A stretch of DNA of 64,000 nt from Alphaproteobacteria bacterium (GTDB taxonomy: Bacteria > Pseudomonadota > Alphaproteobacteria > RF32 > CAG-239). The notes under the pieces are model-generated. The model saw nothing but the letters and a program-made list of their open reading frames with translations. It ran no database searches and was not told where the DNA came from. Below are positions 25,710 to 27,000 of the stretch, piece by piece; position 1 is the first letter of the stretch, and each line of letters starts with the position of its first letter. The translations under genes and the position numbers were made by a program. The stretch lies in the NCBI GenBank assembly GCA_015062585.1, contig SUUJ01000004.1:30512-94511 (forward strand). The letters run 5' to 3'.

Positions 25710-26222
25710 ATGGGTGAAATGGCTCAAAAAATTTCAAAAGTAGATAGAGAAGAGTTGCTAAAAATCTTAAATATTGCTTATGCGGAAGAGTGGCTGGCAT
25801 ATTATCAATATTGGCTTGGAGCTCAGCTGATTGTCGGACCCGAGCGCAAAGCAATTGCCGAAGAATTTATCGAACACGCGACAGAAGAGTTTGATCATGC
25901 TCAAAAATTGGCTACACGCATTATCGAGCTTGGCGGGACTCCGATTCTCAACCCTGACGAATGGCAAAAAGTTGCACTTTGTAAATATGATGCGCCGACC
26001 AAACCTTATGTGATGAACTTGTTGGAACAAAATTTGGTTGCCGAGCGTTGTGCAATCGTCAGATATCAAAAGATTTGCGAGATGACACACGGTAATGATT
26101 ATGAAACCTACCGTATGGCCGTAAAGATTTTGCACGAAGAAATCGAGCACGAAGATGAAATAGGTTGTTTCAAAGACGATATAAATGCCTTATATGAGTA
26201 CAAAAACAAAATGCAAGACTAA
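25710..26222 (+). CDS. Ferritin-like di-iron protein
   Basis: EEWLAYYQYW...EFIEHATEEFDHAQKLATRI...EQNLVAERCAIVRYQ...ILHEEIEHEDEI. Confidence 0.85.
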   Translation: MGEMAQKISKVDREELLKILNIAYAEEWLAYYQYWLGAQLIVGPERKAIAEEFIEHATEEFDHAQKLATRIIELGGTPILNPDEWQKVALCKYDAPTKPYVMNLLEQNLVAERCAIVRYQKICEMTHGNDYETYRMAVKILHEEIEHEDEIGCFKDDINALYEYKNKMQD

Positions 26223-26267: not shown

Positions 26268-26296
26268 TTGACTCATTTTTAAAATTATGTCAATAT
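26268..26296 (+). promoter_or_regulatory. Putative promoter of structured RNA
   Basis: TTGACT (26268-26273), 17-nt spacer, CAATAT (26291-26296). Confidence 0.45.
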
Positions 26297-26302
26297 TTTG
26301 AC

Positions 26303-26471
26303 AAAATTAGAATCGGATAGTGATTAAAATTAAAGATTTTATCTGTCGATATAGGACTTTATAACACACAGACCATAATCACTACTCCAAACAAACTTCA
26401 GCGGTCTGTTCAATAAAGAATACCTGAAACAGATAAAAGAAGCTCTGCTAAGCAAAAGCAGAGCTTTTTTT
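26303..26471 (+). ncRNA. Candidate structured small RNA (no known family recognised)
   Basis: Nested stems TTTTATCTGT/ACAGATAAAA (26337-46/26429-38), AGG/CCT, CTTTAT/ATAAAG (26357-62/26413-18), ACAGACC/GGTCTGT (26368-74/26403-09), then terminator AGCTCTGCT/AGCAGAGCT+T7. Confidence 0.6.
26440..26471 (+). terminator. Intrinsic terminator of candidate sRNA
   Basis: AAGCTCTGCT-aagcaaa-AGCAGAGCTT followed by T-run. Confidence 0.85.
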
Positions 26472-26494: not shown

Positions 26495-27000
26495 AAAAAT
26501 GTCATCGCCTTAAGTGAGAGCATAAATAAGAAATGTCATCCCTCAAATGAATAAATAATGTCATTCCTCGCTCGGCGCTTTGGCGTAAAAAATAAGTCAT
26601 CGCCTGAGTGAGCTTGCGAACGAGGTTAGCGATCTTCAACTTATTCTTATGTTACTTTTGAGTGACCAAAAGTAACCAAAAGTCACCGCTCAAGATGTTT
26701 TTTTATACGCTTTTTTCAACCGGATGTGCCCTTCACATCCGTTGGCTGACTTTGGGTACATAAAAGGAGAGTCTCCGGTCAAAAAAAGCTAAAAAACATA
26801 AATCGCGGTTGTTGTTTTTTTATTTAAAAGTGTCATCGCCTGAGAGAATAAATAATGTCATTCCTCGCTCGGCGCATTTGCGTCCGTGCGTCTAGGAATC
26901 TCATCTTTGCGTCAGCGCTATATTTAATAAAAACAAGGAAGATCCCTAGACGATTGCTTGACGCAATCGAGGGATGACTTTGTTGTTGTTTTATGTCATG
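26495..27000. repeat. Intergenic palindromic repeat cluster B
   Basis: Core copy at 26644-26820 (+) flanked by GTCAT-type hairpin modules. Confidence 0.9.
26644..26820 (+). repeat. ~175-bp core intergenic repeat, copy B
   Basis: Near-identical to 39281-39455 and to the reverse complement of 4892-5066. Confidence 0.9.

Follow-up and report, generated by a model that had tools for sequence, protein, structure and literature searches.

Introduction

Trans-encoded small RNAs (sRNAs) of the Hfq type occlude the Shine-Dalgarno (SD) sequence or the start codon of their target mRNAs, as RyhB does on sodB. Among the Alphaproteobacteria, two described sRNAs of Caulobacter are of particular relevance. 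CcnA of Caulobacter crescentus is located in the origin of replication, is presumed to be activated by CtrA, and employs the CCCC of a C-rich apical loop to pair with G-rich sites near start codons; its targets include ctrA and gcrA, and it is tied to the CtrA/GcrA/CcrM circuit (PMC8959179). The stress sRNA GsrN similarly exposes a C-rich loop that pairs with an mRNA leader (PMC5869019). The current study concerns a structured element from another alphaproteobacterium (Alphaproteobacteria bacterium; RF32; CAG-239), which is found downstream of a ferritin-like gene within a stretch of 64,000 nt (GCA_015062585.1, SUUJ01000004.1:30,512-94,511, forward strand), hereafter referred to as the window. 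From comparative analysis, we conclude that this element represents a genuine sRNA family, not catalogued before, whose target, the mRNA of a DUF2934 protein, is strongly supported; its action appears best explained as that of a classical trans-acting antisense sRNA.

Like the RyhB-type sRNAs, the present RNA has an independent promoter, an intrinsic terminator, and an antisense segment directed against an initiation region. Unlike them, it has a single apical loop whose sequence fits the SD as well as the AUG of, in essence, one conserved target; it also bears an arm that mimics this target. With CcnA it shares an alphaproteobacterial origin as well as a C-rich apical loop facing a start-codon region. 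However, when the two are compared by loop, target, and location, the present RNA lies beside rpe and ferritin, carries the loop CUCCAAAUAA, and is matched to DUF2934. We rejected an identity with CcnA, as the loop here differs from the CCCC loop A and the top target is neither ctrA nor gcrA. GsrN, too, is structured and exposes a C-rich loop to an mRNA leader, but the predicted pairing of the present RNA covers both SD and AUG. Its rod-like shape and similar size are also shared with 6S RNA (RF00013), but the element is unmatched by RF00013 and the genome has a separate 6S RNA (RF00013, C11:138110-138265, plus strand, locus L024, 56.4 bits). An earlier note on this DNA had recognized no Rfam family, and a scan of Rfam 15 returned none above the gathering threshold. 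Matches below the threshold (Thr_leader, PyrG, and others) are weak and largely driven by the terminator. The RNA matches none of the named families tested.

Results

A conserved, structured sRNA gene

The earlier note had also proposed a structured sRNA that possesses a promoter and terminator of its own and contains no open reading frame. The features it named (the promoter, nested stems, 28-nt apical loop, and terminator with T7) are all present letter for letter (Table 1), the absence of an open reading frame holds at the level of sequence, and the unit is conserved throughout most of a genus. Conservation extends from the promoter through the rod and apical loop to the terminator, and the gene unit, its structure, and this conservation can be read directly from the compared genomes. 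The rod of nested stems spans positions 26337-26438 and, together with the terminator, folds with a minimum free energy of -37.7 (z = -5.6), which none of 200 shuffled sequences equaled in stability. When the 5' end is included (z = -5.4), a rival pairing of the 5' segment GGATAGTGATTA with the loop appears.

Covariation among homologues, a check suggested by the earlier note, supports this structure and is heavy, with changes on both sides, in P2 and the inner stem. In an alignment of 24 copies fitted to the model, 13 of the 20 pairs have changed on both sides, and 93.6% of cells are paired vs 80.3% in shuffles, none of which (0/500) reached the observed value; controls with slid partners gave 32-45%. 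A MAFFT alignment of the first 13 copies yielded the same covariation picture as the model-fitted alignment. Stem P2, for example, occurs as CAGACC/GGTCTG, CAAGCC/GGCTTG, AAGACC/GGTCTT, and other variants, with the loop motif constant throughout, and the terminator past P1 retains its form with a stem sequence that varies among homologues. The promoter takes the form TTGACA-N17-CA(A/G/C)AAT in homologues, with near constant spacing across the 27 examined. The region is AT-rich, with 5 promoter-like sites found vs 6.5 expected, and the promoter by itself is therefore no better than chance; it is rendered credible by the fixed spacing conserved in all homologues. We infer a transcript start ~6-8 nt past the -10 element.

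As for its distribution, a DNA search of 95 genomes returned 13 strong copies, all from one genus. A covariance model (R1) detected the RNA in 24/36 genomes of this genus and in 0/121 of the other family genomes searched, a second model built from the R1 matches (R2) detected it in 30/36, and a pattern search using the promoter, GANTC site, and loop added G017, G019, G020, and G025, which brings the total to 34/36. Neither the models nor the pattern search found the RNA in G015 (93% complete) or G029 (85% complete). Each copy in the genus carries the rod, the loop, and a terminator. Matches of R1 and R2 to the opposite strand of the same element arise because the rod is symmetrical, whereas matches of a third model (R3) in genus g12, G002, and G021 look like chance, since they lack any rpe or ferritin context. 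The hosts are uncultured Alphaproteobacteria, many of them from the gut or rumen of sheep, deer, buffalo, and other animals according to public record titles, and we take the RUG isolate names to indicate rumen origin as well.

A related RNA occupies the syntenic position beside rpe, and usually ferritin (rpe, ferritin, RNA), in genera g9 (10 genomes) and g56 (2 genomes), where it has the common loop CUCCAAAUAAAA plus an extra hairpin and terminator. The g9 relative (L182-L191) is longer: a second hairpin is capped by AAACUCACC or a similar sequence and the terminator by CCCCUAAU. Both loops are C-rich and conserved, and that of the terminator is also present in g56 (L196-L197). These additional C-rich loops may bind further targets. 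In other relatives (L046-L048, L062), what stands downstream of ferritin in place of the RNA is a protein gene whose promoter, TTGACA...CAnAAT, is similar.

The apical loop is matched to the start of DUF2934 mRNA

The earlier note had suggested that the loop could pair with SD sites and that its targets might be predicted, and a specific conserved target has indeed emerged, as judged from sequence. When the loop was duplex-scored against 1374 predicted start regions, drawn from 99% of its own genome, the top-ranked of the 1374 was the gene for an 85-aa DUF2934 protein (PF11154; C5:38587-38844, minus strand, locus L200). Read as its reverse complement, the loop CAUAAUC..CUCCAAAUAA gives the DUF2934 initiation region, including both SD and AUG, and the leader AAUUUGGAGUUAGUGAUUAUGG is an almost exact reverse complement of CCAUAAUCACUACUCCAAA.

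This complementarity is itself conserved. The genus encodes DUF2934 in 36/36 genomes, and in all 30 that were read the orthologous gene has the complementary leader UUUAUUUGGAGUUAGUGAUUAUG or one that differs little from it. The conserved portion comprises UUAUUUGGAG...GAUUAUG or a close variant, of which UUAUUUGGAG is also found in g9. Averaged over 30 loops scored against the starts of the genome that contains the window, DUF2934 reaches -22.5 kcal/mol compared to -15.5 for the next gene and -8.1 (sd 2.5) for all genes. For 33 distinct matched pairs, the mean duplex energy is -24.0 vs -8.6 (sd 0.4) with shuffled loops. Exchanging partners between genomes gives a mean of -22.2 (sd 0.4), and the matched pairs were better in all 10,000 permutations. 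The leader is missing from the DUF2934 paralogues of these genomes, which score ~-5 to -11 apart from two at -17. In G017, the two partners have changed together, with loop AUAAC facing target GUUAU instead of AUAAU facing AUUAU, and the loops of g9 extend to CUCCAAAUAAAAAAUG where the g9 leader opposite reads CAUUUUUUAUUUGGAG. A conserved promoter, TTGACG-N16/17-TATATT, precedes the target itself, and from it the mRNA is predicted to start ~20 nt upstream of the SD. A ZnuC-like ABC gene (C3:66028), second in the own-genome duplex list, was rejected as a second target, as it falls far below DUF2934 once loops are averaged. The DUF2934 protein has a tail rich in Lys, Ser, Ala, and Cys.

A target-like 5' arm and a fixed GANTC site

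Target identity, start-codon pairing, competition of a 5' arm for the loop, and a GANTC site all go beyond what the earlier note described. The 5' arm GGATAGTGATTA resembles the target initiation region GGAGTTAGTGATTA and pairs with the same loop bases (P3) in the clade of the window, in G004 and G005, and in g56 (12 perfect pairs). P3 survives sequence changes as CTGATT/AATCAG, CAGATT/AATCTG, and GTGATT/AATCAC. Only about half the copies support P3, and we therefore ruled it out as a universal pseudoknot; in that part of the family, the arm could act as an internal decoy or keep the RNA closed, a less certain reading than that of the target.

In 27/27 copies, GANTC followed by G is found at a distance of 39-43 nt, measured from where the -35 element starts, with A, C, G, or T at the variable position. 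Intergenic GANTC density genome-wide is ~2 per kb. GcrA is encoded in 32/36 genomes of the genus and the CcrM-type methylase family PF01555 in 36/36; PF01555 being a broad family, CcrM itself is probably encoded. The extended GcrA motif is YGAKTCG (PMC7987155), part of which is matched by GANTC plus G. In one Caulobacter S-phase class, GANTC sits between -10 and -35 (PMC4287350). That placement is not seen here, as the site lies ~7-11 nt downstream of the predicted start, which speaks against carrying the Caulobacter model over unchanged. No general pattern of GANTC was seen downstream of promoters in the same genome, so the site is a feature of the sRNA gene rather than of all promoters. Its conservation may partly operate at the level of the RNA, since the same bases join P3 in some copies. 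With somewhat less certainty, the combination of a GANTC near the start with encoded GcrA and a CcrM-type methylase is what one might expect of a GcrA/CcrM-controlled promoter.

Table 1. Predicted features of the sRNA locus, in window coordinates
Feature	Position	Strand	Basis or remark
Ferritin-like gene (PF00210), upstream	25710..26222	+	neighbor, outside the RNA; several loci retain the RNA but lack this gene
Sigma70-type promoter TTGACT-N17-CAATAT	26268..26296	+	sequence; -35 TTGACT 26268-26273, 17-nt spacer, -10 CAATAT 26291-26296; spacing kept in 27 homologues
Predicted sRNA transcript, ~165-170 nt	26302..26471	+	promoter and terminator positions; conserved in 34/36 genus genomes
GANTC site (GAATC, then G), candidate CcrM methylation/GcrA element	26310..26314	+	27/27 copies
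P3 5' arm GGATAGTGATTA	26315..26326	+	pairs with apical loop; mimics target initiation region GGAGTTAGTGATTA
P1 5' arm TTTTATCTGT	26337..26346	+	structure analysis
Inner stem 5' arms AGG, CTTTAT	26353..26362	+	covariation at 4/4 modeled pairs
P2 5' arm ACAGACC	26368..26374	+	two-sided changes at all 7 pairs
Apical-loop antisense segment CATAATCACTACTCCAAACAA	26374..26394	+	CAU opposite target AUG, CUCC opposite SD GGAG
P3 3' arm TAATCACTACTCC	26376..26388	+	same bases as antisense segment
P2 3' arm GGTCTGT	26403..26409	+	covariation
Inner stem 3' arms ATAAAG, CCT	26413..26425	+	covariation
P1 3' arm ACAGATAAAA	26429..26438	+	covariation
Intrinsic terminator	26440..26471	+	stem ~26440-26466, T7 26465-26471; other stem sequence after P1 in homologues

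Directly past the sRNA terminator, at window positions 26500-27000, lies a cluster of dispersed repeats, in which GTCATTCCTCGCTC has 22 exact copies and GAGGGATGAC has 29 in the assembly.

Discussion

Based upon these features, we consider it likely that the locus encodes an independent trans-acting sRNA whose loop pairs with the SD and AUG of DUF2934 mRNA, blocks ribosome binding, and thereby lowers the amount of the protein. Presumably, the gene is transcribed and the rod holds the 28-nt apical loop open; the loop would then base-pair in vivo with the DUF2934 initiation region, covering the SD GGAG together with the AUG, and this pairing would prevent ribosome binding and yield less DUF2934 protein. 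Hfq could conceivably assist, as its gene is present in 36/36 genomes of the genus and the window copy ends in U7, although the U-tract is weak in some homologues. Within the clade of the window, the RNA probably has both a closed (P3) form and an open or target-bound form, because the target-imitating 5' arm can occupy the same loop. Several observations weigh against this reading. Within a single genome, the duplex energy is unexceptional, as shuffled loops reach -18 to -26 somewhere, and for this reason the case for the target rests on its conservation. The comparison of cognate with mismatched partners is confounded and inflated by relatedness. The SD is often partly paired in predicted folds of the leader. 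Lastly, P3 is significant by shuffling in 15/31 copies and is absent from the rest.

The partly paired SD, which is predicted in several species, would also suit a scheme in which the same RNA and target interact with the opposite outcome, such that pairing activates or stabilizes DUF2934 mRNA, as GsrN reportedly does on katG and CcnA on ctrA. Both of these Caulobacter sRNAs have C-rich loops and raise translation of their targets (PMC5869019, PMC8959179). Nevertheless, we regard activation as unlikely, given that pairing covers the SD and the start codon themselves rather than a sequestering strand, and occlusion would be the simplest outcome of such pairing. It is less probable still that the main action lies elsewhere, with the element either titrating SD sites broadly or binding a protein as a pseudoknot RNA, and DUF2934 being one of many targets or a sponge. 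In favor of this, many SD sites offer a match to CUCC, the main clade and g56 (12 bp) have both conserved the P3 pseudoknot, and further C-rich loops exist in g9. However, a single gene stands far above all others when loops are averaged, its pairing spans UUAUUUGGAG plus GAUUAUG and thus extends beyond the SD, and the DUF2934 paralogues do not share it.

Perhaps the most obvious concern with an element of this kind is that it could be a cis-regulatory leader, such as a riboswitch or attenuator, or a product of the ferritin 3' untranslated region, as the terminator directly follows the structured domain and the ferritin gene is upstream and co-directional. The earlier note had already argued against a riboswitch, and the arrangement of the loci bears this out. 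No co-directional gene directly follows the RNA in any of 13/13 loci; rather, the next gene lies in convergent orientation and its identity varies among genomes (fabZ in the window), and a riboswitch is therefore ruled out. Moreover, promoter and RNA are retained where no ferritin gene lies beside rpe (L003-L005, L188-L190). In divergent copies, a terminator hairpin separates ferritin from the sRNA promoter, although none is evident in the ferritin-promoter interval of the window. The link to ferritin is positional only, and we consider an origin as a leader or 3' product to be very improbable.

Returning to the trans-acting sRNA directed at DUF2934, the fixed position of GANTC relative to the promoter suggests that CcrM/GcrA may time its synthesis. 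One could further envision a methylation-timed switch, in which GANTC gates synthesis, the loop silences DUF2934, and the mimicking 5' arm closes the loop until the target displaces it. As a complete scheme, we view this as speculative and rather doubtful.

A limited literature search brought up no sRNA in this bacterial group, and the present findings would add to these uncultured gut bacteria an uncatalogued RNA family with a specific target supported by evolution. As the partners are short and their pairing is conserved over two genera, the interaction should be testable with two plasmids in a heterologous host. Whether methylation is able to time an sRNA could likewise be examined on a concrete example, the fixed GANTC. 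For DUF2934, a protein family of unknown function, the predicted pairing may provide a functional handle.
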